Below the pieces are notes generated by a model. The model had not been told where the DNA came from. It saw nothing but the letters and a program-made list of their open reading frames with translations, and ran no database searches. 64,000 nucleotides of DNA from Methanomassiliicoccales archaeon (GTDB lineage Archaea > Thermoplasmatota > Thermoplasmata > Methanomassiliicoccales > UBA472), in contig JAPKYK010000005.1 in the NCBI GenBank assembly GCA_026394395.1, positions 1 to 64,000 on the forward strand, given 5' to 3'. Shown here piece after piece: positions 3,716 to 22,227 of the stretch. Position 1 is the first letter of the stretch. Each line of letters opens with the position of its first letter. The position numbers and the translations under genes are program-made.

Positions 3716-3836
3716 GATATCAGTTCCCTTTCTACGCGAAGAATGACGATGTTCTGGCATTCCCAGGGGATTATTAGATTGTTTTGCCGTTGTGCTATGC
3801 AAATTAATAATTCACCGGTGACCCTTCCCTCCTACC

Positions 3837-4814: not shown

Positions 4815-4818
4815 ACGT

Positions 4819-6111
4819 CTAACCTTTTCCTACGCCTTTGTAGCTGAAACCCAGCTTGCGGCATTTGTCGGCGTTGAATATGTTGCGCCCGTCGACAATG
4901 ATTGGAGTGCGCATCAGTTTCTTCACCTTTTCCAGGTCCAGGTCCTTGTAGCACGAGTGATCGGTGACGAAAACAGCGCAGTCCGCGCCCTTCAAGGCCG
5001 CGTCCGTGTCCCGGACCATCTCCACCTTGTACGGCTTCTGCACGAAGGGGTCGTGTACGATCAGGTCGTTCTTCTCCATGAGACCGTTTATAATGACCAG
5101 GCTGGGCGAGTTGCGGGTGTCGTCCGAGTCCCGCAGGAAGCTCAATCCCATGATGGCAATCCGGGCCCGGTCCTTCACCCCCTTTTCCTCCAGGGCCTTC
5201 CAGACCAGCCCTATCATGTGCAAAGGCATATACTCGTTCATCTTCCGGGCAGCGGGCATCACTTCTTTCTTAGAATGCTTGGCCGCGCTCAGTAAAAGCC
5301 AGGGGTCCTTCGGCAAACAGTAACCGCCCACCCCGGAACCGGGGATGTGCATGTCCCGGAACGGGCAGGTGTTGACCAACTTCCGCACTTCGAAGACGTC
5401 CGCGCCCAGCTCCTCGCATATTAACGCCACCTCGTTGGCGAAGGCTATCTGAACGTCGCGATAGGCGTTCTCTGTGGTCTTGGAGATCTCGGCGTTGATG
5501 AGGGACGTGGCGTGAATGTTACCCTTCACTATCATCCTATAATATTCCGCACCGGTGGCCGCGGAGCGCTCGTCGTATGCTCCCAGTATCCGGTCGTATT
5601 CCTTGATGTTGCGAAGCAGACGCCCGGGCATGACCCTTTCCGGGCAATGCACCAACAAGTAATCCGTTCCCGGTTCGAACCCCCGTTGCTCCCTTATCAG
5701 CGGGACGACCACCTTCTCCATGGTCCCCGGGGGTATGGTGGACTCGATGGAAAGCAGGGCTCCCTTCTTCATGTGCTTGGCGATACTGGTCACCGCGCTG
5801 CGCAGGGCCTTGAGATTAGGGTTCTTGTTCTCGTCCACCGGCGAATCGACGGAGACGAAGATGGCGTCCGCCTTGCTCAGGACGGACGGGTCAAGGTCGG
5901 CGTACAACAATCCCTTGTCGTGCACTTCGCTCAGCAGCTCGCTCAAACCTGGCTCGGCCCCTTCGATGGGGTTTACGCCGCGGTTTATCTTGTCCACCTT
6001 CACAGCGTCGATGTCGTTCCCGTAGGTCTTGAATCCCACAGATGCGAACGAACAGGCCAAGGGCAGTCCGACGTATCCAAGACCGACCACGGCCACGATT
6101 CTCCCGAGCAT
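4819..6111 (-). CDS. wbpA: UDP-N-acetyl-D-glucosamine/mannosamine 6-dehydrogenase, WbpA/WecC family
   Basis: This NAD-dependent UDP-sugar dehydrogenase has 430 residues from the ATG at 6111. It opens with AVVGLGYVGLPLA (GxGYVGLP), and has the linker-helix residues EISKTTENAYRDVQ with K211. The thiohemiacetal-forming C265 sits in GVGGYCLPKDPW. It oxidises the C6 hydroxyl of a UDP-HexNAc to a carboxylate in two NAD-dependent steps. An open frame extends 117 codons further upstream, but that stretch is the opposite-phase shadow of the acetyltransferase gene, so I reject it. The gene is last in a minus-strand run: GT4, 2-epimerase, acetyltransferase, dehydrogenase. Choice between GlcNAc and ManNAc substrate cannot be made by eye. 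Confidence 0.85.
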   Translation of the reverse strand: MLGRIVAVVGLGYVGLPLACSFASVGFKTYGNDIDAVKVDKINRGVNPIEGAEPGLSELLSEVHDKGLLYADLDPSVLSKADAIFVSVDSPVDENKNPNLKALRSAVTSIAKHMKKGALLSIESTIPPGTMEKVVVPLIREQRGFEPGTDYLLVHCPERVMPGRLLRNIKEYDRILGAYDERSAATGAEYYRMIVKGNIHATSLINAEISKTTENAYRDVQIAFANEVALICEELGADVFEVRKLVNTCPFRDMHIPGSGVGGYCLPKDPWLLLSAAKHSKKEVMPAARKMNEYMPLHMIGLVWKALEEKGVKDRARIAIMGLSFLRDSDDTRNSPSLVIINGLMEKNDLIVHDPFVQKPYKVEMVRDTDAALKGADCAVFVTDHSCYKDLDLEKVKKLMRTPIIVDGRNIFNADKCRKLGFSYKGVGKG

Positions 6112-6167
6112 GAAGGGGGAATCAATGGACTTGGTTAAAAGACCTTTGACAGTCGAAAAATGAACGA

Positions 6168-6620
6168 TCAGCTTTTCTTGGTCGGCCTGGCCGGGTTGCC
6201 TACGACGGTCGTTCCGGGTGCGACGTCCTTGGTCACCACTGCGCCAGCTCCAATCGTAGACCCTTCTCCGATGGTCACGCCGCAGACTATAATCGCCCCG
6301 GCCCCGATGGAAGCGCCCTTCCTGACCACCGTGGGCGTGATGCTCCAGTCGCCCACGGCGTGCGGGTGCAGGTCGTTGGTGAATGTCGCCCTTGGACCAA
6401 CGAAGACCTCGTCCTCGATGGTGACCCCTGAGGGAATGAAGGCGAAGGCCTCGATCTTGCAACGGTCACCGATGGTAACACCACGCTGGATCTCCACGAA
6501 GGCGGCGATGCGGCATCCGTTGCCGATCTTGCAGCCGTAGAGGTTGACGTAATCGCGCACTATGGTGTCATCGCCTATCTGGCAATCGACGATGGAGTAG
6601 TACTTGGCCATCAGCTTCAT
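6168..6620 (-). CDS. wbpD: UDP-3-amino-sugar N-acetyltransferase, WbpD-like (left-handed beta-helix)
   Basis: The 150-residue protein is built almost entirely of hexapeptide repeats ([LIV]-G-x4), for example CKIGNGCRIAAFVEI, GVTIGDRCKIEAFAFI and GVTIGEGSTIGAGAVVTKDV. It ends with the usual TTVVGNPARPT. These fold into a trimeric left-handed beta-helix that uses acetyl-CoA. The catalytic histidine is probably the one in NDLHPHAVGD. In the Wbp pathway it acetylates the 3-amino group to give UDP-2,3-diacetamido-2,3-dideoxy-glucuronate. A second in-frame ATG at 6611 is possible; I keep the first because GGGATG lies about 10 bp upstream of it. It lies between the 2-epimerase and 6-dehydrogenase genes on the same strand. 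Confidence 0.82.
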   Translation of the reverse strand: MKLMAKYYSIVDCQIGDDTIVRDYVNLYGCKIGNGCRIAAFVEIQRGVTIGDRCKIEAFAFIPSGVTIEDEVFVGPRATFTNDLHPHAVGDWSITPTVVRKGASIGAGAIIVCGVTIGEGSTIGAGAVVTKDVAPGTTVVGNPARPTKKS

Positions 6621-6709
6621 GTTACGTCATCCCACAGCGGTCTCAATGAATAAATAATAATCATCCTTCAGACGACGCGATCAAATATTCCGCTATCCAA
6701 ACCGTTGAT

Positions 6710-7777
6710 TTATAGGTCGGACCGTTCGAGGATTTTCACTATCCGCTCGGAGACCTTCTTGTCCCCGTAACTTACATGGCGCTCCTTCCGCGGCCTTTCT
6801 CTGGCCAGGGCCTCGGTTATTTTTTCATTATGGGCGCCCACCAGCACGTTCCAGCCGTCCTCCAGCGTCTCCACCCATTCCGTCTCGTCCCGCACGGTGA
6901 CGCAGGGCACGCCGAAGAAGTAGGCCTCCTTCTGCACGCCGCCGGAATCGGTCATGATCTTGTGGGCGTTCTTCTCCAGCGAGGTGAAGGACATGAAGTT
7001 CTGAGGCTCGGTCAGGACCACGTTCTTCGCCTCCTCCAGTCCCCTCAGCATGCCCCAACCGGTCAGGTTCTTGCGGGTACGGGGATGCAGTGGCAAGACG
7101 AACGTTTCCCCGGAATCCAGCATGGCGCCGATTATCTCCTCCATGTTCTTCCGGTCGTCCGCGTTCTCCTGACGGTGGATGGTGCACAGGACGTACTTAC
7201 CTTTCTTCACTCCCATCTTGTCCAGGACGTCGTCCTTGAGGCGGTCATCTATGTCCAGGAGCACCTCGGTCATGGTGTCGCCTACCACGTGCACGCCCTT
7301 GGTCACTCCCTCTCGAGCAAGATGATCGACGGAAACCTGGCTGGGGCAGAAGAGCAACGTCGATATGTGATCGGTGAGCACGCGGTTGATCTCCTCGGGC
7401 ATACCACGCCGGAAGGAACGCAGGCCGGCCTCGATGTGACCTATGGGAATGTTGAGCTTGATGGCCGCCAAGGCCCCGGCCAAGGTGGAGTTGGTGTCGC
7501 CATACACCAACACGATGTCCGGCCTATCCTTCAATAAGATCTCCTCGATGGCCACCAGCATCTTGCCCGTTTGCGCGCCATGACTACCGGAGCCCACGCC
7601 CAGATAGTAGTCCGGAGCCGGAATATCCAGCTCCTCGAAGAACACCTGGGACATCTGGTAGTCGTAGTGCTGACCTGTGTGCATGATCTTGTGGTCGTGC
7701 TTCTTCGACACGGCCTTATGCACCGGAGAGACCTTGATGAACTGAGGCCGGGCACCGACGATGGACAGGACTTTCAT
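6710..7777 (-). CDS. wbpI: UDP-N-acetylglucosamine 2-epimerase (non-hydrolysing), WecB/WbpI family
   Basis: The protein has 355 residues and the full signature of non-hydrolysing UDP-GlcNAc 2-epimerases: VGARPQFIKVSPV, HTGQHYDYQMS, VYGDTNST with D94, HIEAGLRSF with E116, MPEEINR with E128/E129, and CTIHRQEN with the catalytic histidine. The enzyme interconverts gluco and manno configurations by an elimination/addition through 2-acetamidoglucal. In E. coli WecB it makes UDP-ManNAc; WbpI works on the diacetamido-uronate. The neighbouring 3-oxidase, aminotransferase and acetyltransferase favour the WbpI role, giving UDP-ManNAc(3NAc)A. The coding start is 28 bp from the stop of the upstream GT4 gene, so the two are probably co-transcribed. 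Confidence 0.85.
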   Translation of the reverse strand: MKVLSIVGARPQFIKVSPVHKAVSKKHDHKIMHTGQHYDYQMSQVFFEELDIPAPDYYLGVGSGSHGAQTGKMLVAIEEILLKDRPDIVLVYGDTNSTLAGALAAIKLNIPIGHIEAGLRSFRRGMPEEINRVLTDHISTLLFCPSQVSVDHLAREGVTKGVHVVGDTMTEVLLDIDDRLKDDVLDKMGVKKGKYVLCTIHRQENADDRKNMEEIIGAMLDSGETFVLPLHPRTRKNLTGWGMLRGLEEAKNVVLTEPQNFMSFTSLEKNAHKIMTDSGGVQKEAYFFGVPCVTVRDETEWVETLEDGWNVLVGAHNEKITEALARERPRKERHVSYGDKKVSERIVKILERSDL

Positions 7778-9493: not shown

Positions 9494-10543
9494 ATGTCAC
9501 AAAAAATTGCTCTAATAACAGGGGTCACGGGTCAAGACGGTTCGTATCTGGTGGAATTGCTTCTTTCAAAAGGTTACCAGGTCCACGGCATCATCAGGAG
9601 GGCAAGCACTTTTAACACCGGTCGTTTGGACCATATATACACCGACCCCCACGAACCCGATAAGAACCTGTTCCTGCATTATGGGGACCTATCGGATTCA
9701 GAACAGATAAACAACCTTATTTTTAACATCCATCCGGACGAGGTCTACAATCTCGCCGCCCAAAGCCACGTTCGGGTATCCTTCGATATGCCGGAATATA
9801 CCAGCGAGATCACCGGGTTGGGCGTCACACGCTTACTTGAGGCGATACGTCGCTCACATCATCCCCTCCGCTTTTATCAGGCTTCCAGTAGCGAGATGTT
9901 CGGCTCAGCGGTTCCACCCCAGAACGAAAATACCGGTTTCCAACCCCGCAGCCCATACGCCTGTGCCAAGCTTTACGCTTACCACATGGTAAAGAACTAT
10001 CGTGATGGATACAATATTTTCACATCGAACGGCATTCTATTCAATCACGAATCTCCCAGAAGAGGAGAGACCTTCGTGACAAGAAAGGTCACAAGGGCAG
10101 TGGCCGCGATACTCGCTGGAAAGCAGAAGAAGCTATACATGGGCAATCTCAAAGCTCGGAGGGACTGGGGTTTCGCTCCCGAGTATGTGGAGGCCATGTG
10201 GCGCATACTGCAACACGATCGACCATTAGATATAGTGGTTGGTTCCGGTGGTACCAACAGCGTTCAGGAATTCGTAGATGCCGCGTTCGATTATGTCGGG
10301 TTGAAGGCCCAGGACTACTTGGAGATCGATCAACGATATTTCAGACCGAATGAAGTGGAAGATCTTATCGCCGACGCATCGAAAGCCAAGAAAGAGCTCG
10401 GATGGTCCGCACAAATAGGTTTCTCAGACCTCGTCAAGATAATGGTGGATGCTGACCTGAGAGCTAGTGGACAAGAACCAATAGGTGAAGGGGATGTAAT
10501 AATACGTCGCAAGTTCCCGAACAAATGGTGGAAAGGGGACTGA
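9494..10543 (+). CDS. gmd: GDP-mannose 4,6-dehydratase
   Basis: The 349-residue SDR enzyme has [18 protein letters not shown], the NAD(P)-binding motif with the GQDGSYL signature specific to Gmd. It also has [33 protein letters not shown], the catalytic ASSSEMFG, and Y155/K159 in [26 protein letters not shown] is the characteristic GDP-mannose-binding loop. It converts GDP-D-mannose to GDP-4-keto-6-deoxy-D-mannose, the branch point for GDP-fucose, rhamnose, perosamine and colitose. It is followed after 6 bp by a PLP 3-dehydratase and then an Fcl-like gene, which points to colitose. Base composition is lower in GC than the wbp genes to the left. Confidence 0.93.
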
Positions 10544-10549
10544 AACCAT

Positions 10550-11746
10550 ATGCAAAAAAGATGGGTTGGAGTAGGCGACTTCAAGATCACCGATATAGAG
10601 AGAAAGGCCATAAATGATGTTCTAGACTCGGGAAAGATCACTGAAGGGAAGAAGACCCATCAGTTCGAACGTAAATGGGCGGATTTCGTGGGCACATCGA
10701 AATGCGTGGCCGTCAATTCTGGCACCAGCGCGCTCATCGTAGGGATGATGGCTCTGACCGAGTTACGGAAATGGCCGAAACGAAAAACGGCGATCACCAC
10801 TCCTTTGACCTATGTTGCCACCTCGAACTCCCTTGTTCTCACTGGTTTTAATCCAATATATGTGGACGTGGACGAAAAGACCTTTGGCATCACCCCGGAT
10901 GGTATTAAGGAAGCGATCGAGGGGGTAAAGGTAGATATGCCAGAGCTCATCCTTCCTGTACATTTGATGGGATATCCATGTGATATGGGGGGAATATCCC
11001 GCATATGCCACGACAATGGCATAGCACTTATGGAGGACTCGTCCCAGGCGCACGGTACTGTAGTGGAAGGGAAGAGGACCGGAAGTATGTCGGACCTATC
11101 CACGTTCTCATTCTACATCGCACACAATATTCAGGCTGGGGAGCTGGGTGCCGTCTGCACCGACGATCCTGGGATCGAGAAACTGATGCGAAGTCTAAAG
11201 GCCAACGGTCGACGGTGCGATTGCGTCTCATGCACTCGTCGAGATAAGGGATGCGTCAGACGCAATGATGTGGACACGAGGGACCCCAGATTTACGCACG
11301 AACGCATCGGGTATAATTTCAAAACCATGGAGTTCCAGACCTCCTTGGCATCGGTCCAGATCGATAAGGTGTCAGAGATCATAAAAACCAGGTCTGATAA
11401 CGTGCGATATCTGAACGATCAGCTCTCCATGTTCGCAGATAAGATCAAATTGCCCGATTTTGATCCCAACGTGAGCTATCTGGCATATCCGATGATCGTT
11501 GATGAAAGCATCGACCGCGATTCCCTGGTCAAGAAATTGGAAAATAGAGGGGTCGAGGCCAGACCTCTGTTTGGTTGTATACCAACGCAGCAACCCTCTT
11601 ATCTGCGATATAAAAAGAGGTATCAGGGAAAATTGAAGGTCGCGGAGAGGCTGGGGGCTCATGGCATGTACGTAGGTTGCCACCAATATCTTACACACGA
11701 CGATCTGGATTACATAGCTCAAGTATTCAAGGAGGTATTGACTTGA
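10550..11746 (+). CDS. PLP-dependent keto-sugar 3-dehydratase, ColD/E1-like, with a local four-cysteine cluster
   Basis: This 398-residue DegT/StrS-fold protein has the PLP lysine replaced by histidine: H192 in STFSFYIAHNI aligns with K181 of the WbpE-like protein. That replacement marks 3-dehydratases such as ColD and the E1 enzyme of ascarylose synthesis, not aminotransferases. Directly after the PLP region is C223-D-C225-V-S-C228-x6-C235. E1/RfbH enzymes bind a [2Fe-2S] cluster with C-X57-C-X1-C-X7-C; here the distant cysteine is serine (EDSSQAHG) and all four cysteines are close together. Flanked by gmd and an Fcl/ColC-like gene, it most likely makes the 3-deoxy intermediate of GDP-colitose. 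The nature of the metal centre is inference. Confidence 0.75.
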   Translation: MQKRWVGVGDFKITDIERKAINDVLDSGKITEGKKTHQFERKWADFVGTSKCVAVNSGTSALIVGMMALTELRKWPKRKTAITTPLTYVATSNSLVLTGFNPIYVDVDEKTFGITPDGIKEAIEGVKVDMPELILPVHLMGYPCDMGGISRICHDNGIALMEDSSQAHGTVVEGKRTGSMSDLSTFSFYIAHNIQAGELGAVCTDDPGIEKLMRSLKANGRRCDCVSCTRRDKGCVRRNDVDTRDPRFTHERIGYNFKTMEFQTSLASVQIDKVSEIIKTRSDNVRYLNDQLSMFADKIKLPDFDPNVSYLAYPMIVDESIDRDSLVKKLENRGVEARPLFGCIPTQQPSYLRYKKRYQGKLKVAERLGAHGMYVGCHQYLTHDDLDYIAQVFKEVLT

Positions 11747-12681
11747 ACGACCTAACGAAAAAGCTGATATTGGTCACTGGGGCACACGGGTTCCTTGGAA
11801 GTTTTGTAGTTGATAATTTGGTTGATAAGGGCGTACCAAGGGCGAACATTCGAACGCCCAGCAGTAAAGAACTGGACCTCCGTCAATGGGACAACTGCAA
11901 GAGGGCGATCAAGGACATCGATATGGTGCTCCATGTCGCTGGAAGGGGCGGTGGGATAAGCTATAACCGTCGTTTTCCCGGGTCGCTATTCTATGACAAC
12001 ATCATCATGAACTCACAATTAATGGAGGCGGCTCGGATGGAGGGGGTGGGTAAGTTCGTTGGTATAGGGACGGTCTGTTCATATCCCAAGTTCGCTCAGA
12101 TCCCATTCAAGGAAGAGGATGTATGGAACGGCTATCCCGAGGAGACCAATGCTTCCTATGGCCTTTCTAAGAAGATGATGATAGTCCAGTCCGAAGCTTA
12201 TCGCCAACAATATTCATTTAACGCGGTCAACCTGTTAATGGTCAACCTTTACGGGCCCCGGGACGATTTCGATTTGGAAAACTCCCATGTGATCCCGGCG
12301 CTGGTCCGGAAATTCGTGGAAGCGGTTGAGTCGGGCGCGAAGGAGGTCACGGTCTGGGGAACGGGCAAGGCCTCTCGTGAATTTCTGTATGTAGAGGACG
12401 CCGCTGAAGCTATCGTTTTGGCCGGGATGAAATATGATAGCTCAGATCCGGTCAATATAGGGAACGGGCAGGAGCTATTGATAAAGGACCTGGTGAACAA
12501 GATCGCCGAGCTGACCGGCTTCGATGGTACGATCGTATGGAACTCGAACCAGCCAGATGGACAACCGAAGCGGTGTCTGGATGTGACCAAGGCCAAGGAA
12601 AGGTTCGGGTTCGAGGCCAAGATCGGATTGGACGAGGGATTGAAGAGAACGATAAAATGGTTCGAGTCATCCCGTTCGTAG
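11743..12681 (+). CDS. GDP-fucose synthase-like epimerase/reductase (Fcl/ColC family)
   Basis: The 312-residue SDR starts at TTG 11743, chosen because GGAGG at 11731-11735 sits 7 nt upstream. The TTG overlaps the stop of the dehydratase gene. The longer frame from ATG 11677 would lie inside that gene. The protein has LVTGAHGFLGS, GTVCSYPKFAQIPFKEED, the Y139/K143 pair in YGLSKK, and VNLYGPRDDFDLENSHVIPALVRKF. The last motif is diagnostic for GDP-4-keto-6-deoxymannose 3,5-epimerase/4-reductases. Fcl makes GDP-L-fucose; the homologue ColC does 5-epimerisation and 4-reduction to GDP-L-colitose. The upstream 3-dehydratase favours the ColC role, though fucose cannot be excluded. Confidence 0.82.
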   Translation: MNDLTKKLILVTGAHGFLGSFVVDNLVDKGVPRANIRTPSSKELDLRQWDNCKRAIKDIDMVLHVAGRGGGISYNRRFPGSLFYDNIIMNSQLMEAARMEGVGKFVGIGTVCSYPKFAQIPFKEEDVWNGYPEETNASYGLSKKMMIVQSEAYRQQYSFNAVNLLMVNLYGPRDDFDLENSHVIPALVRKFVEAVESGAKEVTVWGTGKASREFLYVEDAAEAIVLAGMKYDSSDPVNIGNGQELLIKDLVNKIAELTGFDGTIVWNSNQPDGQPKRCLDVTKAKERFGFEAKIGLDEGLKRTIKWFESSRS

Positions 12682-12780
12682 GAACATTGCCTGTACTATA
12701 ATGATGTTCGACCTTTGAAATCGTCTATCCATATGGACATTCGAATGCGCCCATCGATGTAGTCACAGGACCATACTTTC

Positions 12781-13680
12781 TCACAGGGCGATCCATTCTT
12801 TTGGGCAAAGGTCTTTGACCTCATGATCGACCAAAAACCATTGTCGTGGGGTGATGACCATCTTCTCCTCGTTCCGAGAAAGCCAGGCCCCCCACCAACT
12901 GAACGTGCTGTTCGCATTAATGAAATTCTCACATTCCTTCATTAACATAAGGTCCTGTTCAGGCTCGTTTGGCTTGTTGATGTCAACAACTGTACTGCTG
13001 CCATTAAGATGGAAATTCGACCGAACCCATTCCGGTTCATCGGAGAAGATGAAGAAGTGAGGATCGTTCACCTTTTCCTTGATCAATTCGATGGCTTTGC
13101 TATAGTAATCAGAGAGGTCAACGGCGTGCACCTTTTTTGCTGAAGGATTGGAGTAATAGTCTCCCCTCCTCACATGGAGACAGACCGAGTTGGTTTTATG
13201 AATTTGCTCGACCATGCTGACGCACTCGCTCTTCAAAGGTCGGTTGATCTCCAGATCGTGCAGGAGCGTTTGCCGGATGTCCTTGAAATAACGGTCGCAA
13301 GGAAAATAACCGATCAAACAGCTATCATCTGGTAGGTCCAGAACCGCAGGGTCAAAACCTATACCTCTTTCTCTATAAACACAGGGATTTCTGAAAGGCC
13401 GTTTCTTTATTACCTTAAAGCTCATTTCATTGACCATTCTCTTAACTTTTGGTATTCTTTCATTTAGAAATGTAGTGAGCTCTTCAGAATCGATCGTCTT
13501 GACATCAATATTGAACTTATCAAGACCATATGGCCAGGGTGTGACATTGGGATTTCTATTGAAAAAATAGAACGAAGTATTCAATCTCAATTCCGTTCCG
13601 TACTTCAATGACAATCGTCTCCCCGTACAATACTGGAACAATTGATTTCCTAATCCACCCATCATCGAGACAACTATCAT
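12781..13680 (-). CDS. Glycosyltransferase family 11 (alpha-1,2-fucosyl/colitosyltransferase-like)
   Basis: The 299-residue protein opens with MIVVSMMGGLGNQLFQYCTGR, the N-terminal signature of GT11. It also has the donor-binding VCLHVRRGDYY motif and a C-terminal NANSTFSWWGAWLSRN, all standard for alpha-1,2-fucosyltransferases. These enzymes invert GDP-L-fucose. At least one family member, E. coli O55 WbgN, is known to use GDP-L-colitose. Since the adjacent cassette reads as a GDP-colitose pathway, this is the best local candidate for the transferase that uses it. The gene points against gmd-colC and is AT-rich (roughly 42% GC by eye), suggesting acquisition together with the GT10 gene beyond it. 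Confidence 0.83.
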   Translation of the reverse strand: MIVVSMMGGLGNQLFQYCTGRRLSLKYGTELRLNTSFYFFNRNPNVTPWPYGLDKFNIDVKTIDSEELTTFLNERIPKVKRMVNEMSFKVIKKRPFRNPCVYRERGIGFDPAVLDLPDDSCLIGYFPCDRYFKDIRQTLLHDLEINRPLKSECVSMVEQIHKTNSVCLHVRRGDYYSNPSAKKVHAVDLSDYYSKAIELIKEKVNDPHFFIFSDEPEWVRSNFHLNGSSTVVDINKPNEPEQDLMLMKECENFINANSTFSWWGAWLSRNEEKMVITPRQWFLVDHEVKDLCPKEWIAL

Positions 13681-13866
13681 TCAATCGGTCCTTCCTGATC
13701 GGGACTGTATTGATGGTTTTCTTAATAATATTGTGGTAAAATGATCAACATATTTTCAACATCTCAAATAATGGTTATCTCGTTAATCAACGGATCCATT
13801 ATTATGACGATGCCCACCAGTCTAATTTAATATCACTCTTCTACATACCGAGAAAAGAGTGGTGCG

Positions 13867-14868
13867 TTGTACACAGTCAAGTTCGATAACCAGGACATTA
13901 AATTTCCATGGGGGAGACAGACACCAAGCGGTTCCTACCAATGGGGAGATTATAAGTTCGTTTTCAATCAGGACCTGGGCGAATGTGATTACTGGGTCGT
14001 TGAAGAATCAGTTCCCGAAACGACCACGTGCCACTGCCCTCCTGAACATACGGTGTTCATGACTGGAGAACCGCCATGCATACGAACCTATAATCCATTT
14101 TTTTTGTATCAGTTTCACACAGTGGTCAGCTGCCATAGGAACCTTATCCATCGCAGGGTCATAAACACACAACCAGCTTTACCATGGTTCATCGGTATGC
14201 GATGGGACAGCCAGACTAAAAATTGGAAAAAAGAGCATAATAAAGACTATGATGAACTGCAATCGATGCCAGATCCGAAAAAGGATAGATTGGTCTCGGT
14301 CATAACATCGGATAAGACCGCAATCAAAGGTCACCGTATCCGTTTGGATTTTGTCAGAAAATTGGAAAAGGAGATAGGAGGGGACCTGGACGTGTTCATC
14401 ACCAACAAAATGAGCCTGGAGGACAAGTGGGATGCAATTGGCCGATATCGTTACCACATCGCCCTGGAAAATTGCATTCACACCGATTTCTGGTCCGAGA
14501 AGCTCGCCGATTCGATATTAGGTCTGAGTTATCCGATCTATTACGGGTGCCCCAATATCTCCGATTATCTGCCCAACCATTCATACACGCCAATAAACAT
14601 AAACGACTATGCTGGTTCGCTTCGCACCATCAAAGAAATTATTTATTCAGATGAGAGGGAAAAGCATCTCGATGCGCTCCGAGAGGCCAAACGCCGGGTA
14701 TTGGACCAGTACAATATATTTCCCTTATTGGCCAGTATTCTCGATACGCTTCCTCCGGGGGGCAAGCACAAACAAATCACAATAAAGCCTGAGAGAAAAA
14801 TCTATACCCGCAGTGTAAAAAATGTTGTAATGGGGGTGGGGGGTTTGTGCAAGAGAATGGTAAACTGA
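13867..14868 (+). CDS. Glycosyltransferase family 10-like (alpha-1,3-fucosyltransferase C-terminal domain)
   Basis: The 333-residue protein carries the GT10 C-terminal signature: RYRYHIALENCIHTDFWSEK, then LGLSYPIYYGCPNISDYLP, matching the family's K-F-x-L-x-F-E-N-S and E-K-x9-P-V-x-x-G pattern. Upstream it has LVSVITSDKTAIKGHRIRLDFVRKL, equivalent to the helix after the first Rossmann domain. GT10 enzymes transfer L-fucose from GDP-fucose in alpha-1,3/1,4 linkage. The start is uncertain: TTG at 13867 is the most upstream codon in this frame that fits, with a weak GGTG before it. It is AT-rich and lies in a low-GC patch with the GT11 gene. The GDP-sugar donor is presumably a product of the gmd cassette. 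Confidence 0.72.
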   Translation: MYTVKFDNQDIKFPWGRQTPSGSYQWGDYKFVFNQDLGECDYWVVEESVPETTTCHCPPEHTVFMTGEPPCIRTYNPFFLYQFHTVVSCHRNLIHRRVINTQPALPWFIGMRWDSQTKNWKKEHNKDYDELQSMPDPKKDRLVSVITSDKTAIKGHRIRLDFVRKLEKEIGGDLDVFITNKMSLEDKWDAIGRYRYHIALENCIHTDFWSEKLADSILGLSYPIYYGCPNISDYLPNHSYTPININDYAGSLRTIKEIIYSDEREKHLDALREAKRRVLDQYNIFPLLASILDTLPPGGKHKQITIKPERKIYTRSVKNVVMGVGGLCKRMVN

Positions 14869-15001
14869 CCCATTCTAGATCTAATCGAATTCATTTTTTA
14901 GTTTATTATAAAATATATTTATTATTTAAATAATTTAGTCAACGAAAGAGGGGCACAACAAAAGTGATATCATCGCACTGCCTGATACCGTCGGGACTTC
15001 C

Positions 15002-15772
15002 ATGAAGGTAGTGATACTCGCTGGGGGATTGGGCACTAGGATTGGTGAGGAATCGGCCATCAGACCGAAGCCAATGGTGGAGATCGGGGGAAAGCCGATC
15101 CTCTGGCACATAATGAAGATATATTCCAAGTTCGGGTACAACGATTTCGTCATCTGCTTGGGATACAAGGGTTACATAATCAAGGAGTATTTCGCCAATT
15201 ATTTCCGTTATAACTCCAACCTGACCATCGATCTCCAGAACAACAAGGTGAAGGTGCACGACAGCGAATGCGAGCCCTGGAAGATCACCCTGGTAGACAC
15301 CGGCGACAATACCATGACCGGTGGGAGGATCAAAAGGGTGGAGCGGTTCATCGACGGCGACGAGTTCATGCTCACCTACGGAGACGGTGTGGCCGATATC
15401 GACATCAATCGTCTGATGGAGTTCCACCATCGGCACGGGCGCAAGGCCACTTTGACCTCCGTCATGCCCCCAGAGCGCTTCGGGATCATCGATTTCGGTG
15501 CCGATGATTCGGTCATGAATTTCGTGGAAAAGCCCCATGGGGACGGTTCCTGGGTGAACGCCGGCTTCTTCGTGCTTAAAAATGACGTCCTGGATTACAT
15601 CGATGGGGACAGCTGCATCTGGGAACGTGCTCCTCTAGAACAGTTGGCCAAAGAAAAACAGCTCATGAGCTACAAGCACTATGGGTTCTGGCAGGCCATG
15701 GACACCATGAGAGAAAAAAACCTGCTGAACGACACGTGGAACAAGGGCAACGCCCCCTGGAAGATATGGTGA
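15002..15772 (+). CDS. rfbF: Glucose-1-phosphate cytidylyltransferase
   Basis: The 256-residue nucleotidyltransferase begins MKVVILAGGLGTRIGEES and has RPKPMVEIGGKPILWHIMK, YTAAVITCGYG-type features replaced by the RfbF-specific FVICLGYKGYIIKEYF, and the acidic LTYGDGVADID that binds metal. It makes CDP-glucose from CTP and glucose 1-phosphate, the first step to CDP-3,6-dideoxyhexoses. It leads a plus-strand operon rfbF-rfbG-rfbH-SDR with overlaps or very short gaps. Upstream, 133 bp of strongly AT-rich DNA (TATA-like runs at 14890-14935) probably holds the promoter. Composition rises to high GC here, in contrast to the previous two genes, so this operon has a different history. Confidence 0.92.
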   Translation: MKVVILAGGLGTRIGEESAIRPKPMVEIGGKPILWHIMKIYSKFGYNDFVICLGYKGYIIKEYFANYFRYNSNLTIDLQNNKVKVHDSECEPWKITLVDTGDNTMTGGRIKRVERFIDGDEFMLTYGDGVADIDINRLMEFHHRHGRKATLTSVMPPERFGIIDFGADDSVMNFVEKPHGDGSWVNAGFFVLKNDVLDYIDGDSCIWERAPLEQLAKEKQLMSYKHYGFWQAMDTMREKNLLNDTWNKGNAPWKIW

Positions 15773-15783
15773 GATTGATCCTC

Positions 15784-16839
15784 ATGAACTCCCTTTCCAA
15801 TCTGCGCTCCAAAAAAGTGCTGGTGACCGGTCACACTGGCTTCAAGGGCGGTTGGCTGACGTCCATGCTGCTCCAGCTGGGAGCGGAACCGCTCGGATAC
15901 TCCCTGGAACCCCCCTCCGCCCCCTCCTTCTTCGTGGAGACAGGGTTGGAAGAAAGGTGTAAAAACGTCATCGGAGACGTGTGCGAACTCGACCATCTGA
16001 AAAAGGTGATGAAGGTGGAGGAACCGGAAGTGGTGTTCCACTTGGCCGCCCAGCCCCTGGTGATACGTTCGTACCTGGAACCCATCGAAACGTTCGATGT
16101 GAACGTGATGGGAACGGCCAACGTGCTGGAGGCCGTGCGCACCTGCGGATCGGTGCGGGCATGCATATGCATCACCTCCGACAAGTGCTACGAGAACCTG
16201 GAAACGGATTACGGTTACAAGGAGAGCGACCGCCTGGGGGGTAGAGACCCCTACAGCGCCAGCAAGGGGGCGGCGGAGTTCGTCATATCCAGCTACCGGC
16301 ACTCCTTCTTCAAGGACGGCCCTAAAGTGGCCTCGGTCCGCGCCGGCAACGTCATCGGCGGCGGGGACTGGGCCGAAAAGCGCATAGTCCCGGACATCGT
16401 GGGTTGTCTGACGAGAGGAGAACCGCTGGTCCTCAGGAACCCTGATTCCGTACGGCCGTGGCAGCATGTTCTGGACCCGCTCCAAGGCTACCTCACCCTG
16501 GCGAACAGGATGCTAGAAGGGGACGACAGCACGCCGGACGCCTGGAACTTCGGTCCCGACGGGGACCGGATGCCTACGGTACGGCAGGTGGCAGAGATGA
16601 TGATGGCCGCCTGGGGGAAGACCGTTCCCATCGAAGTGGTCCCGAACGAGAACTACCACGAGAGCAAGATGCTCCGCCTGGACTGTTCCAAGGCCAAATC
16701 CTCTTTGGGCTGGCATCCCCGATTGGGCCTAGACAAGGCGATCGGGTTCACCGTGGATTGGTACAAGGCCTGGTCTGAAGGGAAGAATGTGTTCGACATT
16801 ACGAACAGGCAGATCGAGGCCTTTTGGGAGCTCTCTTGA
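15784..16839 (+). CDS. rfbG: CDP-glucose 4,6-dehydratase
   Basis: This is an SDR of 351 residues from ATG 15784. Two further ATGs upstream in frame (15766, 15736) overlap rfbF and are less likely. The sequence has KVLVTGHTGFKGGWLTSML, the RfbG form of the Rossmann glycine motif, then FHLAAQPLVIRSY, ITSDKCYEN, YSASKGAAE with the Y-x3-K pair, and RAGNVIGGGDWA, all typical of CDP-glucose 4,6-dehydratases. The product is CDP-4-keto-6-deoxyglucose. The stop overlaps the start of rfbH (TGATG). The placement between rfbF and rfbH fixes the pathway assignment. Confidence 0.92.
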   Translation: MNSLSNLRSKKVLVTGHTGFKGGWLTSMLLQLGAEPLGYSLEPPSAPSFFVETGLEERCKNVIGDVCELDHLKKVMKVEEPEVVFHLAAQPLVIRSYLEPIETFDVNVMGTANVLEAVRTCGSVRACICITSDKCYENLETDYGYKESDRLGGRDPYSASKGAAEFVISSYRHSFFKDGPKVASVRAGNVIGGGDWAEKRIVPDIVGCLTRGEPLVLRNPDSVRPWQHVLDPLQGYLTLANRMLEGDDSTPDAWNFGPDGDRMPTVRQVAEMMMAAWGKTVPIEVVPNENYHESKMLRLDCSKAKSSLGWHPRLGLDKAIGFTVDWYKAWSEGKNVFDITNRQIEAFWELS

Positions 16840-18185
16840 TGAACAAGGAAATAAAAAAGTTGGAGAGGAACCAGAAGCTCGACCGCACCGAGAAGGCGGA
16901 GAAGATTCGCCAAGATATCCTATCTTTAGGCAGGGAATACTGTGAGGAAGTGCACCGCAAGGGAGCGTTCCGTCCCGGCCTGGACCCCGTACCCGTTTCC
17001 GGAAAGCTCTTCGACGAGACGGACATGAGCATGCTTTTATCATCCTCTCTGGACTTCTGGCTGACCGCCGACCGTTTCAATTCCGCGTTCGAAAAAGGGT
17101 TAAAGTCATTCGTGGGCGTGAAGCACCTGGCCACCGTCAACTCCGGCTCTTCCGCTAACCTCATTGCCGTTTCGGCATTGGCATCGCCCTCGCTCGGAGA
17201 CGAGGCGCTGAGACCAGGGGACGAGGTCATCACCCTGGCCGCCGGCTTCCCCACCACCGTCGCACCGATCTTGCAGAACGGGCTGGTGCCGGTCTTCGTG
17301 GACGTGTCGCTACCGTCGTACAATGTGGACGTCGACGCTCTGGAGAAGGCTTTATCGCCCAAGACCAGGGGCATCATTTTGGCGCATACTCTGGGGAACC
17401 CTTTCGACATCGAGGTGGTGACCAGGTTCGCCCAGGAGAACGATCTGTGGCTGATCGAGGATTGCTGCGACGCCCTCGGTTCGAAGTTCGACGGAAAAAG
17501 GGTGGGGACGTTCGGGGACATATCCACCTTCAGCTTCTACCCGGCGCACCACATCACCACCGGGGAGGGAGGCGCAGTGGCCACTAATTCCGATGAATTG
17601 GCCAAAATTATGATATCCCTGCGAGACTGGGGCCGGGACTGCACCTGCGAGCCAGGGAAGGACAACCGCTGCGGAAAGCGGTTCAACCAGCAGTTCGGCG
17701 AGCTGCCGTTCGGTTACGATCACAAATACGTCTACAGCCGCATGGGATACAATCTGAAGATGACCGATATGCAGGCAGCGATAGGCGTGGCGCAGCTCGA
17801 CCACCTGGACGGATTCATATCAACCCGGGAGAAGAACTTCCGTCTGATGTACGACCTCCTTCAGGACGTGCGCCAGATAACCCTCCCGGAATGGGATTCC
17901 CGTTCGGAACCGTCCTGGTTCGGTATGCCCTTATTGGTAAGGGACGGTAAGCGCCGTGACATACAAGTGCACCTGGACGAGAATAAGGTCGGTACCAGGC
18001 TATTGTTCGGAGGCAACTTGCTCAAGCAGCCTTGCATGAAGGGCGTACATCGCCGGGTGGTCGGGAAGATGACCAACACCGACCGGATCATGAACGATTG
18101 CTTCTGGATCGGGGTGCACCAAGGATTGAACGAAGAGATGGTCCGCTATTCCGCGGAACAAGTCAAGGCGTTCTTCAGGATGTGA
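16839..18185 (+). CDS. rfbH: CDP-4-keto-6-deoxyglucose 3-dehydratase (E1)
   Basis: The 448-residue PMP/[2Fe-2S] enzyme starts at ATG 16839, preceded by GGGAG. The PLP lysine is histidine (H237 in FSFYPAHHITTGEGG), as in Yersinia E1. The iron-sulfur motif C-X57-C-X1-C-X7-C is exact: C210, C268, C270 and C278, the last three in DCTCEPGKDNRC. With an NADH-dependent reductase (E3) it removes the C3 hydroxyl to give CDP-4-keto-3,6-dideoxyglucose. No E3 gene is visible in this window, so the electron donor must be encoded elsewhere. It ends 4 bp before the SDR gene. It is a clear paralogue of the 10550 dehydratase, whose cysteine arrangement differs. Confidence 0.93.
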   Translation: MNKEIKKLERNQKLDRTEKAEKIRQDILSLGREYCEEVHRKGAFRPGLDPVPVSGKLFDETDMSMLLSSSLDFWLTADRFNSAFEKGLKSFVGVKHLATVNSGSSANLIAVSALASPSLGDEALRPGDEVITLAAGFPTTVAPILQNGLVPVFVDVSLPSYNVDVDALEKALSPKTRGIILAHTLGNPFDIEVVTRFAQENDLWLIEDCCDALGSKFDGKRVGTFGDISTFSFYPAHHITTGEGGAVATNSDELAKIMISLRDWGRDCTCEPGKDNRCGKRFNQQFGELPFGYDHKYVYSRMGYNLKMTDMQAAIGVAQLDHLDGFISTREKNFRLMYDLLQDVRQITLPEWDSRSEPSWFGMPLLVRDGKRRDIQVHLDENKVGTRLLFGGNLLKQPCMKGVHRRVVGKMTNTDRIMNDCFWIGVHQGLNEEMVRYSAEQVKAFFRM

Positions 18186-18189
18186 TAAG

Positions 18190-19236
18190 GTGCCCGAAGT
18201 TCCGAATTCTCAATTGAGCTCGGTGGTGAAAGAGGACATCGGCAACATCGTGGCCAAATGCCAAAAGGAGATAGGATCGCTGAACGGATCGACCGTCCTG
18301 ATCACCGGGTCCACCGGTTTTCTGGCTCGGGAGCTCACCGAATCGCTCCTTCTGTCAATTAAAAATGGTCAGAACATCAAGCTGGTGCTCATCAGCCGTG
18401 AGCCAGTAAAAGTAAAAGAGGTGTTCGGCGGCCGGCTCGCACCCGACGTCGACATCGTTCCGATGGATGAGATGGAGCACTACCCCCATCGTGTCGACTA
18501 CATCATCCACGCCGCCTCCCCCTGCGACCCGCGGGTGAACAATGCCTCACCGCTCAGAACAATGACAGACATCTGCACTCTCATGCAGAAGGCCGTATCG
18601 TTAGGTCAGAAGAACCAGCTGAAAAAGTTCATTTTCATAAGCAGCGGGGCCGTCTACGGCGTGCAACCGCCCGAGCTAAAACGGATTCCAGAGGACTATC
18701 CCGGGGCGCCGGACATCAACCGCATGGATTCCTGCTATGGGGAGGCCAAGCGCTGTGCGGAGCTCATGCTGCTGTCGTCCGGCATTCCCTACACGATATT
18801 GCGGGGGTTCAGCTTCATCGGTCCGAACCAGGACCTCACTTCCAGCTTCGCCGTTCCGGACTTCCTGACCTGCGGGTTTCGGGATAAAAGGATCACCATC
18901 TCCGGTGACGGCAGACCTGTAAGAGCGTTCTGTTACGAGTCCGATTTCGCCATCATGCTCCTGAAATGTCTGGTCCGCGCCAAAAATCAAACGCTGAACG
19001 CCGGTAACGATGGCCCGGAGGTGTCGATCAAGAAACTGGCCGACATGGTGGCCAAGGCCATAGGTGGAGTAGATGTCATTATCAAAGGGAGGGACGATGC
19101 CACGAAGCTGCCCCCCCGTTACGTGCCGGACGTAGACAGGATGCGGAATGTGTTTGTACCAGAGGTAGGAGTGGAACAGGCGATCGGCAAGGTGGTCAGG
19201 CACATTCGGGAGACGACCTCACAGCACTCCGTGTGA
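18190..19236 (+). CDS. NAD-dependent epimerase/dehydratase (extended SDR) of the CDP-dideoxysugar operon
   Basis: The 348-residue SDR starts at GTG 18190, just after rfbH. A ~35-residue leader precedes STVLITGSTGFLARELTESL, where the third glycine of the dinucleotide motif is alanine. It has YIIHAASPCDPR, FISSGAVYG and CYGEAKRCAE with the Y-x3-K catalytic pair, then LRGFSFIGPNQDLTSSFAVPDF. The arrangement resembles the long SDRs found beside rfbFGH in bacterial O-antigen loci. By position it should reduce or epimerise CDP-4-keto-3,6-dideoxyglucose, giving for example abequose or paratose. It could also act after a branched-chain transfer by the following transketolase pair. Specificity cannot be read from sequence. 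Confidence 0.72.
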   Translation: MPEVPNSQLSSVVKEDIGNIVAKCQKEIGSLNGSTVLITGSTGFLARELTESLLLSIKNGQNIKLVLISREPVKVKEVFGGRLAPDVDIVPMDEMEHYPHRVDYIIHAASPCDPRVNNASPLRTMTDICTLMQKAVSLGQKNQLKKFIFISSGAVYGVQPPELKRIPEDYPGAPDINRMDSCYGEAKRCAELMLLSSGIPYTILRGFSFIGPNQDLTSSFAVPDFLTCGFRDKRITISGDGRPVRAFCYESDFAIMLLKCLVRAKNQTLNAGNDGPEVSIKKLADMVAKAIGGVDVIIKGRDDATKLPPRYVPDVDRMRNVFVPEVGVEQAIGKVVRHIRETTSQHSV

Positions 19237-19427
19237 AACGGTTTGAGCGTCATTTTTTAATACGATCAAGCAATGGTTATTTGAAAGCTGGCTTAGGTCA
19301 GTATCTCGATAAAAGATATAGAAATCCTTTAATAAGGTCACACTAATGAAAGCGGCCACAATCATTGTCACCTCCGACCTGATCTGACGGATTTAAGGAT
19401 AAATAGAACGAGTCGAAGGTACGATAA

Positions 19428-20243
19428 ATGCGATCTGGGGAGAGTGCGAGAATCCACCTTACGAACATCAAACGGAACATCATTCGGATGGTCAACCGTT
19501 CGGGCACGTCGCACGTCGGCTCGTGCCTGTCGGCCGCCGACATCCTCTACACGCTCTATTTCCGGTCGATGAAGATCGACCCGGCCAATCCCAAGGATCC
19601 AAATCGAGACTTCTTCATCCTTTCCAAAGCCCACAGCAGCGTGGCCCTGTATTCCACCTTGGCGGAGAGGGGGTTCTTCCCCCCCGCCTGGCTGGAAACC
19701 TACTCCCAGAACGAAGGTCGGTTGACCGGCCATCTGGAAAGGGACCAGGTGCCCGGGGTGGAGACCTCCGGCGGAAGCCTGGGGATGGGGCTGTCCCTCG
19801 GCCTGGGCGTGTCCATAGGCAAGAAGTTGCACGGGAACGGCGGGCGCGTGTTCGTGCTCCTCAGCGACGGGGAATGCGAGGAAGGCTCCATCTGGGAGGC
19901 GGTCATGCTAGCCTCCACCCTGAAGACCGACAATCTCGTGGCCATCGTGGACATGAACGGCTGGCAGGCCTGCGGCAGGACCAACGTCATAGTAGAGCAG
20001 AAGAACTTCGCCGAGCGTTGGAAGGCCTTCAACTGGCACGTGACCCAGGTGGACGGCCACGACTGCGATGCCTTGGAATCCGCTTTCAAGGAAAGGACGG
20101 ACGGTCCCCACGTGGTTCTGGCGCGCACGGTCAAGGGTAAAGGCGTCTCCTTTATGGAAGACCGGCTGGAGTGGCACTACAAGGTCCCCAACGATAAGGA
20201 GATGGAGATCGCACTTAAGGAGCTGGGGGGGGACCAGGAATGA
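19428..20243 (+). CDS. Transketolase, N-terminal (ThDP-pyrophosphate) subunit
   Basis: The 271-residue protein matches the N-terminal third of transketolase: NRSGTSHVGSCLSAADILYTLYF, the LSKAHSS histidine, the TSGGSLGMGLSLGLG loop, and the ThDP/Mg motif LLSDGECEEGSIWEA...IVDMNGWQ (GDG-x-N type). In many archaea and some bacterial glycan loci transketolase is split into two subunits. The gene overlaps the C-terminal subunit gene by 4 nt. A 190-bp AT-rich gap separates it from the CDP-sugar operon. It may supply central pentose metabolism, but its position beside rfbFGH suggests a ketol transfer to a sugar nucleotide; both readings remain open. Confidence 0.88.
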   Translation: MRSGESARIHLTNIKRNIIRMVNRSGTSHVGSCLSAADILYTLYFRSMKIDPANPKDPNRDFFILSKAHSSVALYSTLAERGFFPPAWLETYSQNEGRLTGHLERDQVPGVETSGGSLGMGLSLGLGVSIGKKLHGNGGRVFVLLSDGECEEGSIWEAVMLASTLKTDNLVAIVDMNGWQACGRTNVIVEQKNFAERWKAFNWHVTQVDGHDCDALESAFKERTDGPHVVLARTVKGKGVSFMEDRLEWHYKVPNDKEMEIALKELGGDQE

Positions 20244-21157
20244 GGAAGGCCTTCATCTCCAGCCTCACCGAGAGGGCGGCCACGGACGACCGCATCTTCC
20301 TGATCACCCCGGACATGGGGTACTCAGTCCTGGACGAGTTCGCGGCGAGATATCCGCGCCGTTACCTCAACTGCGGGGTGGCCGAGCAAAACTCCATCAG
20401 CTTGGCCGGAGGGCTTGCCCTAACCGGTATAATGCCCTACGTCTACAGCATAATCCCCTTCGTCACCATGCGGTGCTTCGAGCAGGTGCGGGTCAACGCG
20501 GCCTGGATGAACCTGCCCATCAGGATCGTGGGAGTTGGGGCCGGCTTCACCTACGGGGCGCAGGGGGCATCCCACTTCGCCCTGGAGGACATGGCCATCA
20601 TGAGAGCTTTGCCCAATATGACGGTTTGCGCTCCCGGAGACCCCATCGAGGCCCAAGGGATAATCGAGGGCAGCTACGACTGGCCCGGTCCCATGTATAT
20701 CCGCCTGGGGAAGTCCGGGGAGCCGAACGTCCACTCCCCCGACACCAATGTGCGCATTGGAAAGGCCATCACGGTGCTGGACGGGAGCGATCTGGTGATA
20801 ATCTCCACCAGCAACACCCTCAAGCTGGCCTACGACATGGTGACGGGTCTGAGGGGGCAGGGCGTCGACGCGGGGCTGGTCTCCATGCACACCATCAAGC
20901 CCCTCGACGCGGACCTGATCGGATCACTGGTCAAGAAGCGGACGTCCATCGTCACCTTAGAGGAGCACAACATCATCGGCGGGCTGGGGAGCGCGGTGGC
21001 CGAGGTCCTGGCTGAGAAAGGTTCGCCGGTCCGGTTCAAGCGGATGGGCGTGCCCGATGAATATCCATCCGTGGTGGGCGACCAGAAATATCTGCGGAAG
21101 AAGCTGGGCATGGACCGGATCGATGAGGGAACATTGAAGTGGCTACTTAATAAATGA
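20240..21157 (+). CDS. Transketolase, C-terminal (pyrimidine-binding) subunit
   Basis: The 305-residue protein has the pyrimidine-binding domain, FLITPDMGYSVLDEFAARYPRR and NCGVAEQNSISLAGGLALTG, where the glutamate of GVAEQN activates ThDP. It continues with GAGFTYGAQGASHFALEDMAIMRALPN, then a transketolase C-terminal domain with HTIKPLD and EEHNIIGGLGSAVAE. It forms the catalytic heterodimer with the upstream subunit (ATGA overlap). The pair would move a two-carbon ketol unit between sugar phosphates or, if dedicated to the glycan locus, to a keto-sugar nucleotide. GC content is high and like the rfb operon. Confidence 0.88.
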   Translation: MRKAFISSLTERAATDDRIFLITPDMGYSVLDEFAARYPRRYLNCGVAEQNSISLAGGLALTGIMPYVYSIIPFVTMRCFEQVRVNAAWMNLPIRIVGVGAGFTYGAQGASHFALEDMAIMRALPNMTVCAPGDPIEAQGIIEGSYDWPGPMYIRLGKSGEPNVHSPDTNVRIGKAITVLDGSDLVIISTSNTLKLAYDMVTGLRGQGVDAGLVSMHTIKPLDADLIGSLVKKRTSIVTLEEHNIIGGLGSAVAEVLAEKGSPVRFKRMGVPDEYPSVVGDQKYLRKKLGMDRIDEGTLKWLLNK

Positions 21158-21276: not shown

Positions 21277-22227
21277 TCACCTGGGGATTATTTTCTGTCG
21301 CATATAATCGAGCTGTTCGAATATTAAATAAAATATAACGAATCGAGCCGTCAGATATTTGTTCTCCAATCTTGAATTCTCATTGAAAAATGCTCTGGGG
21401 TCTCGTTTTTTAATGAATGCGATCATCATGCGTCCGATAAAACGCTGGGATTGTCTCCGCTGGATTTTTTTCAACGTAGTTCGATAATCTTCATTCGATA
21501 CCATCTTCGATAAAATGTAGTCATCCTTCTTCTGATAGCAATCCTCCGGGAAAGAGACTGAATCCTGATTCTGATGGATCCGATATTCGAAAATAAGCTC
21601 GTTAAGTAAGGTTATCTTTCCCTGGTCCGCCAAGTCAATTAGGAATATACCGTCCCATATTTTTCCATATTCCTCTTTCCTGGCCACCTTCTGAGGAAAA
21701 CCATTCCGGTAGACCACGTTCGGGAATGGAATAAAACTGTTCGAATATTGCACGGCCGCTTCCTTGCTGTTGTGGAAGGTGGTCGATTTCAAGGATTCGT
21801 TCGGAACGTATTTTAAGCTCATTCGTGCGCCTTGGTCGTCAATCCGGTACCCGTTGGTGGTAATGGCGATCAGTCCGTCATCGGCCTCCAAGGCCCCGAC
21901 GGTAGTCTTTAGGAACTCAGGAAGAAGCCGATCATCGTCGTGGAGTATGGTGAAGTATTTTCTCTCGCTCATGCTAAAGGCCCTTTGAAAGTTCCAGAAA
22001 GACTGATGATTACGATCGGCCCCCATCCATCTCACCCTCCCGCCGATAAGGTCCTCCACCGCCTTCCTGGTATCATTGTCACTCCCATTGTCCAGAATGA
22101 CGATCTCCTCGGGCAGGGCAGTCTGGGACAACACGCTCGAAAGCATCTCCCTAAGATACTGCGGGCGATTGTACGAGAGAATGAACACGGTGATGTCCAG
22201 TACTGGCTTCTGTTCGTTCGGTTCCAT
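21277..22227 (-). CDS. Glycosyltransferase family 2
   Basis: The 316-residue GT-A fold protein begins DITVFILSYNRPQYLREMLSS and has LPEEIVILDNGSDNDT, followed by the metal-binding YFTILHDDDRLLPEFL (DxD-like). These are the standard GT2 landmarks. The C-terminal ~90 residues are charged and helical; no membrane span is evident. It is isolated: the preceding transketolase gene converges on it, and the MBL-fold gene lies 140 bp upstream on the same strand. The low GC of this gene contrasts with the transketolase pair. Donor and acceptor are unknown. Confidence 0.85.
   Translation of the reverse strand: MEPNEQKPVLDITVFILSYNRPQYLREMLSSVLSQTALPEEIVILDNGSDNDTRKAVEDLIGGRVRWMGADRNHQSFWNFQRAFSMSERKYFTILHDDDRLLPEFLKTTVGALEADDGLIAITTNGYRIDDQGARMSLKYVPNESLKSTTFHNSKEAAVQYSNSFIPFPNVVYRNGFPQKVARKEEYGKIWDGIFLIDLADQGKITLLNELIFEYRIHQNQDSVSFPEDCYQKKDDYILSKMVSNEDYRTTLKKIQRRQSQRFIGRMMIAFIKKRDPRAFFNENSRLENKYLTARFVIFYLIFEQLDYMRQKIIPR

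Follow-up and report, generated by a model that had tools for sequence, protein, structure and literature searches.

Which sugar would an archaeon attach with a GT11 and a GT10 glycosyltransferase, given that most characterised enzymes of these two families use GDP-fucose as donor? The question is raised by a contig of a Methanomassiliicoccales archaeon (GenBank assembly GCA_026394395.1, contig JAPKYK010000005.1, positions 1 to 64,000; this whole stretch of 64,000 nucleotides is called the window). The host genome comprises 1.64 Mb in 6 contigs and is 99.85% complete, and the window additionally encodes an archaeal LonB LID domain and an HMG-CoA synthase/thiolase pair, both in keeping with an archaeal source. 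The features on which the argument depends are the following.

9494–10543 (+): gmd, GDP-mannose 4,6-dehydratase (TIGR01472, 486 bits, cut-off 415)
10550–11746 (+): degT, predicted His-type nucleotide-sugar C3-dehydrase with a C-x-C-x2-C-x6-C loop that is a probable Fe-S site (PF01041, alignments, tree)
11743–12681 (+): fcl-like GDP-4-keto-6-deoxy-hexose epimerase/reductase (NF047922, matches to solved structures)
12781–13680 (−): GT11 glycosyltransferase of the alpha-1,2-fucosyl/colitosyltransferase family (PF01531, motif blocks, fold match)
13681–13866 (no strand): AT-rich divergent intergenic region between the GT11 and GT10 genes (186 bp, from reading the sequence)
13867–14868 (+): GT10 glycosyltransferase of a subfamily with an RQTP...ECDyWVV N-terminal part (PF00852, subfamily alignment, archaeal clade)
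15002–21157 (+): CDP-sugar operon rfbF-rfbG-rfbH-SDR-tktN-tktC (TIGR02623, TIGR02622 and NF011936 over their cut-offs; transketolase halves)
21277–22227 (−): GT2 glycosyltransferase, a type found at all four archaeal loci of this GT10 subfamily (PF00535)

An earlier note on this DNA had assigned the two neighbouring genes to GT11 and GT10 at these coordinates, where both open reading frames proved to be intact, and both family assignments held. The GT11 protein (299 amino acids) matches Glyco_transf_11 (PF01531) over its full length (E 3.5e-29, 102.4 bits, cut-off 23.9). It contains all four of the blocks that we take to be the GT11 motifs (GGLGNQ.FQY, H.RRGD, FSD...W and NSTFSWWGAW), which are kept with small substitutions in eight of nine aligned rows, the exception being a phage-like row (genome G088) without the RRGD block. 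A fold search with the structure model (pLDDT 69.9, pTM 0.76) returned NodZ, AtFUT1 and POFUT1 fucosyltransferases as the best 14 PDB matches (best E 6e-6, TM ~0.5), and the predicted fold is that of a fucosyltransferase. The window protein stands at an open fork, with no placement, in a GT11 tree from which a G297 row and the phage-like G088 sequence were omitted. The G088 gene itself (L014, 9263–10066) is a short, divergent GT11 relative in surroundings that appear phage-like by eye, with a terminase-like open reading frame at 3226–5259.

The GT10 protein (333 amino acids, TTG start) scores 35.4 bits (E 1.1e-8, cut-off 23.9) against the C-terminal domain Glyco_transf_10 (PF00852), the match being limited to residues 137–250. 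A Pfam search gave no match in this protein at E ≤ 0.001 to FucT_N (PF18025), an H. pylori-type N-terminal domain that marks a subgroup of GT10 and not the whole family. Its sequence matches in the PDB are fucosyltransferases (7yro, 2nzw, 5zoi and 9s6a), and the best ten PDB matches in a fold search were all alpha-1,3-fucosyltransferase entries, with a model that is poor (pLDDT 53.4). The GT10 call thus rests on the C-terminal domain, a conserved subfamily and a low-confidence fold match. H. pylori-type alpha-1,3-fucosyltransferases, which are among the best fold matches, share the C-terminal donor domain and its EN...EK motif with the window protein but possess the FucT_N domain, as do the GT10 proteins of genomes G165 (E 3.6e-38) and G786. 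The G165 gene (L009, 8907–10568), from an archaeon of the same family, lies in a patch of 31% GC and encodes an FkbM-type tail after its FucT_N and GT10 parts; a bacterial-type gmd-fcl pair is found ~15 kb away.

Four archaeal GT10 proteins (the window's, that of G300 and two of G262) formed one clade (support 96/93) that excluded the bacterial sequences in the tree, which came from Flavobacteriaceae, a Bacilli MAG and Neorhizobium. Omitted from this tree were the FucT_N-type proteins of G165 and G786, a weak third G262 protein and a partial Sulfitobacter match. The topology would fit a single import into the family and subsequent spread inside it. Among mobile elements, phages gave only partial C-terminal matches to this GT10 and viral contigs no relative at all, while plasmids supplied one full relative (Neorhizobium galegae) and one partial (Sulfitobacter).

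The suspicion that such genes are uncommon agrees with what homology searches found at the level of the phylum (a sample of 292 genomes) and the order (147 genomes), and inside the order it is supported for both families. PF00852 was detected in 3 of the 292 and 4 of the 147 genomes, PF01531 in 3 and 5, respectively, and neither in 14 control genomes; within the order the two occur together only in the window's genome and in G262. No description of an archaeal GT10 or GT11 was found in titles and abstract openings of the literature on archaeal fucosyltransferases and colitose, and none was found there that pairs Methanomassiliicoccales with a fucosyltransferase. According to an excerpt of a genome survey (PMC7725333), the TACK group lacks L-fucose and L-colitose, which implies that they were found in other archaea, so that predicted archaeal colitose is not new as such.

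The two genes are divergent, with 186 bp between them; the GT11 gene ends 99 bp from the end of fcl at 12681, and rfbF follows the GT10 gene in the same orientation after 133 bp. They do lie in a low-GC patch, as had been described: the GC content of consecutive 1-kb segments across 13001–15000 is 0.416 and 0.436, against 0.565 for the whole window. Third-position GC (GC3) is 0.55 in gmd, 0.58 in degT, 0.53 in fcl, 0.52 in the GT11 gene and 0.53 in the GT10 gene, compared with 0.72–0.84 from rfbF (0.75) to tktC and 0.84 (sd 0.03) in a reference of 12 window genes that we picked. The common GC3 thus indicates a compositional history that the five genes share with one another and not with the CDP-sugar operon. 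By this measure gmd, degT, fcl, GT11 and GT10 are one unit, distinct from the operon downstream.

Within this unit, the gmd-degT-fcl genes are tightly arranged. The degT gene starts 6 bp past gmd and overlaps at its stop with fcl, whose likely start is a TTG behind AAGGAGGT at about 11743 (the listed open reading frame begins at 11677). The degT frame is intact, and in alignments its product has a histidine (His192) where aminotransferases have the PLP lysine. According to part of a review, this replacement is a mark of nucleotide-sugar 3-dehydratases, and E1 and SpnQ have a four-Cys [2Fe-2S] site, ColD being without one (PMC8987622). With His192 at the PLP-lysine position, DegT should therefore be a C3-dehydrase. 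Its C-x-C-x2-C-x6-C loop falls in the same region as the RfbH cysteines and is probably an Fe-S site. The protein resembles the CDP-4-keto-6-deoxyglucose 3-dehydrases E1/RfbH in the histidine and in having cysteines in the corresponding loop, but it has Ser-Ser (EDSS) at the site of the RfbH EDCC pair and an extra loop cysteine, scores 233.3 bits against the RfbH profile (cut-off 423) and is encoded in a GDP-sugar operon. In a tree it falls outside both the ColD clade (98/97, including Haladaptatus) and the RfbH clade, and we would class it as neither. A Solidesulfovibrio DegT (33% identity) with the histidine and a like Cys loop, encoded beside a gene annotated as GDP-L-fucose synthase, also falls outside both clades. 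The Haladaptatus protein belongs to a plasmid-borne gmd-SDR-DegT set (L063, 3995–7125); it has the histidine, no Fe-S cysteines, and groups with ColD, making the set a candidate colitose operon in a haloarchaeon.

The Fcl-like protein matches solved GDP-L-fucose synthases and scores 267.8 bits against NF047922, under the equivalog cut-off of 500, as does the Fcl of G262 (282.6). It belongs to a five-row archaeal clade (100/100) with the order's GDP-fucose synthases, apart from six ColC proteins, in a tree that elsewhere has long branches (Haladaptatus and Solidesulfovibrio); the trees used 6 of the 10 ColC and 4 of the 10 ColD sequences at hand. No second close Fcl (next match, 26% identity) and no fucose salvage enzyme (FKP, PF07959) were found in the host genome. 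A gene 65% identical in its product to the window Fcl, directly followed by a GT11 gene, is found at the edge of a contig from a different family of the order (L084, 3–1647, genome G315). With a dehydrase that is neither ColD nor RfbH and an Fcl in the archaeal clade, colitose is a product that we infer, and the operon seems equipped to produce a 3,6-dideoxy GDP-sugar by way of something other than a ColD orthologue. The earlier note had spoken of a GDP-sugar colitose cassette beside the two transferase genes. The position, the Gmd equivalog and the His-type dehydrase all stand. The cassette is not the classical gmd-colC-colD, however, as its dehydrase is not ColD and its synthase lies outside the ColC clade. 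The GT10 gene also adjoins a CDP-sugar operon.

Gmd exceeds the TIGR01472 cut-off in 6 of the 22 genomes of the family, being found in all four that bear a GT10 gene and in 2 of the 18 others (Fisher p 0.002, with relatedness ignored). Three of the family's genomes have gmd and fcl adjacent (G262, L051; G300, L082; G292, L091) with, unlike the window, no DegT between or beside them. The Fcl proteins are orthologous, those of G300 and G292 being 56–59% identical to the window's and that of G262 forming one clade with it. The simplest account is that a dehydrase gene was inserted into a gmd-fcl operon. Because G262 and G300 carry this GT10 together with gmd-fcl and no DegT, their GT10 would use GDP-fucose. 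The same could apply to the window, with GDP-L-fucose the main donor, GT11 and GT10 ordinary fucosyltransferases, and DegT inactive, directed at another substrate or responsible for a minor product. Such an outcome would fit the dehydrase-free operons, the place of the window Fcl inside their clade and the donor used by most characterised members of the two families, and is set against a DegT that is intact, sits inside the operon in overlapping frames and has kept its histidine and Cys loop; we regard it as possible but doubtful. The characterised GT11 enzyme WbgN uses GDP-colitose, and tolerates GDP-fucose too, according to an excerpt of its description (PMC12723683), which bears out the contention that at least one GT11 enzyme transfers colitose and is also in keeping with a fucose donor here. 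Part of a further source states that the sugar transferred is partly decided by substrate availability (PMC11987014).

The neighbourhood of rfbF raises a different prospect, namely that the GT10 belongs to the CDP-sugar operon and transfers or decorates a CDP-linked 3,6-dideoxy (perhaps two-carbon-branched) sugar, the GDP cassette being incidental. The order GT10-rfbF-rfbG-rfbH-SDR-tktN-tktC-GT2 is repeated in G262 (L010), a member of another genus, with operon proteins 43–61% identical, and the short same-strand spacing to rfbF points the same way. Against this, the GT10 genes of G300 and of the second G262 locus are at a distance from any rfb genes and have nevertheless kept the GT2 companion, and the GC3 of the GT10 gene departs from that of rfbF. 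To our knowledge, moreover, no GT10 enzyme uses a CDP donor. Weakened by these copies and by GC3, the assignment of the GT10 to CDP-sugar transfer seems improbable to us.

The GT2 gene is the steadier neighbour. Homologues 37–43% identical to its product occur in the other three of the four archaeal loci of this GT10 subfamily. The companion is thus present in 4/4 such loci (window included), compared with 0/12 other archaeal loci read, 0/7 other stretches of the same contig (one of which overlaps the window end) and 0/17 bacterial loci above 29% identity. The GT10 and GT2 genes of G300, and likewise those of the second locus in G262, are close neighbours with no rfb operon between them, so GT10-GT2 appears to be the constant unit, to which the CDP-sugar operon was added in two loci. 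That operon probably makes a different sugar of the same glycan. Its transketolase is split, the N and C halves being two genes in the window, and its make-up points to the addition of a two-carbon unit to a CDP-3,6-dideoxyhexose.

Bacterial relatives of the GT10 provide parallels to the pairing with GT11 and with colitose genes. The first four loci came from Flavobacterium sp. AS60, Hyunsoonleella ulvae, a Bacilli MAG and a Neorhizobium galegae plasmid, and in all four a GT11 gene lies within 2 kb of the GT10 gene; the Bacilli contig, at 3.4 kb, shows no more than the nearest neighbours. The Flavobacterium and Hyunsoonleella genomes also carry a true gmd-colC-colD set, with DegT proteins matching solved ColD at E 1e-179 and E 3e-169 (the latter Hyunsoonleella, PDB 2gms). 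The idea that this GT10 always travels with GT11 failed when seven more genomes with the subfamily brought the count to 5/11 bacterial genomes, versus 0/6 ColD loci without this GT10 (Fisher p 0.07). A survey of 397 Flavobacteriaceae genomes, which include the seed G308, found ColD in 8 and the GT10 subfamily in 8, with both in G308 and G596. When the scan-found seed G306 is added, ColD occurs in 3/9 genomes with the GT10 and 6/389 without (p 0.0006), and when both seeds are left out in 1/7 versus 6/389 (p 0.12); a firm GT10-ColD link was set aside on the latter figure and the link is treated as weak. Two of the seven other ColD genomes have a GT10 gene near the colitose genes: G596, where GT11, GT10 and gmd-colC-colD lie within 10 kb, and G786, where a GT10 gene of the FucT_N type is beside gmd-colC-colD. 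The bacterial association of GT10, GT11 and colitose genes is thus suggestive, not firm.

The Flavobacteriaceae colitose clusters (Hyunsoonleella ulvae, L060/L087; G596, L109) have the same GT10 subfamily or a sister branch, together with GT11, beside gmd-colC-colD, but unlike the window they encode a bona fide ColD and no GT2 of the archaeal companion type. The bacterial E. coli O55 O-antigen cluster (L122; WbgN, colC, colD) is likewise a polysaccharide cluster in which GT11 is encoded alongside a His-type DegT dehydrase and a synthase of the Fcl type, but there the dehydrase is ColD and the synthase ColC, of other clades than the window's, and no GT10 is annotated in the 19-kb stretch. The epitope of V. 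cholerae O139 resembles Lewis b with two colitose residues. Colitose is carried by polysaccharides of V. cholerae O139 and A. trota, as mentioned in an excerpt of PMC3210612.

GT11 genes of the order can also be found next to quite other genes. In G299 (L083, 5816–10075) the GT11 gene adjoins genes for an Fcl/GME-like SDR, a GHMP kinase and a SIS-domain protein, and the genome has no Gmd over the cut-off; a different GDP-sugar may serve this GT11, perhaps a heptose. The context implies that GT11 in the order is not tied to fucose, and by extension the window's GT11 and GT10 might be recent imports, as their low GC3 suggests, that are tuned to some other GDP-beta-L-sugar (such as GDP-L-galactose or an L-heptose) or are unexpressed. 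This we consider very unlikely, as neither window gene is disrupted and no GDP-L-sugar genes other than gmd-degT-fcl were found next to them.

With gmd-degT-fcl the only GDP-L-sugar source found, colitose, fucose or both together are the likeliest sugars to be transferred. We give about even weight to the proposition that a GDP-fucose operon has been rebuilt for GDP-colitose and that GT11 and GT10 add colitose (or fucose) as glycan caps. In the pathway that we infer, from substrates, Fe-S cluster, product and donor to linkages, acceptor and surface location, the block 9494–14868 would make and then attach a GDP-linked 6-deoxy-L-sugar. Gmd would convert GDP-mannose to GDP-4-keto-6-deoxymannose, from which DegT would remove the C3 hydroxyl by PMP chemistry with histidine instead of lysine, drawing its electrons probably from an Fe-S cluster as in E1/RfbH and not by way of glutamate as ColD does. 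The Fcl-like enzyme would then yield GDP-L-colitose by C5 epimerisation and C4 reduction, and GT11 and GT10 would transfer colitose, or fucose from GDP-L-fucose where DegT has not acted, to surface-glycan acceptors that resemble galactose or GlcNAc, and the GT2 at 21277–22227 would build part of the acceptor.

Several observations favour colitose: the Gmd equivalog, the tight gmd-degT-fcl order, His192, a single close Fcl, the failure to find PF07959, the common GC3, the co-occurrence of Gmd with GT10, the bacterial parallels and WbgN. Others count against it, namely a DegT that is not a ColD orthologue, an Fcl that groups with archaeal Fcl and not ColC, the DegT-free gmd-fcl pairs of G262 and G300, the weak GT10-ColD link, the presence of GT11 in just 5/11 bacterial genomes and the synteny of GT10 with the CDP-sugar operon. 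The earlier interpretation is partly supported, being right in outline and wrong in the detail of the cassette. The fuller version, in which an iron-sulfur C3-dehydrase that is not ColD was inserted into a GDP-fucose operon and colitose surface caps are laid down by GT11 and by a GT10 colitosyltransferase, is one we advance tentatively and with less conviction. The gene families are known; their archaeal combination with a non-ColD dehydrase is new. If the proposal is true, there are two enzymatic ways by which colitose has come to archaea, the second relying on an Fe-S dehydrase that works on a GDP-sugar, and an archaeal surface bears the kind of terminal glycan chemistry familiar from Lewis-type antigens. 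Sister-genus operons that have or lack the dehydrase offer a natural test of the effect of a single gene insertion on a nucleotide-sugar pathway.

Other nucleotide-sugar genes are present at 2621–7777, 23472–25920 and 58816–59706 of the window, encoding WecB (UDP-GlcNAc 2-epimerase), a UDP-ManNAc-type dehydrogenase, a MocA/DegT pair, RmlA, RmlB and RmlC, with a separate RmlD-like gene. A 538-amino-acid open reading frame at 26280–27896, which has no Pfam match, stands out by its GC content of 27% against ~57% around it.
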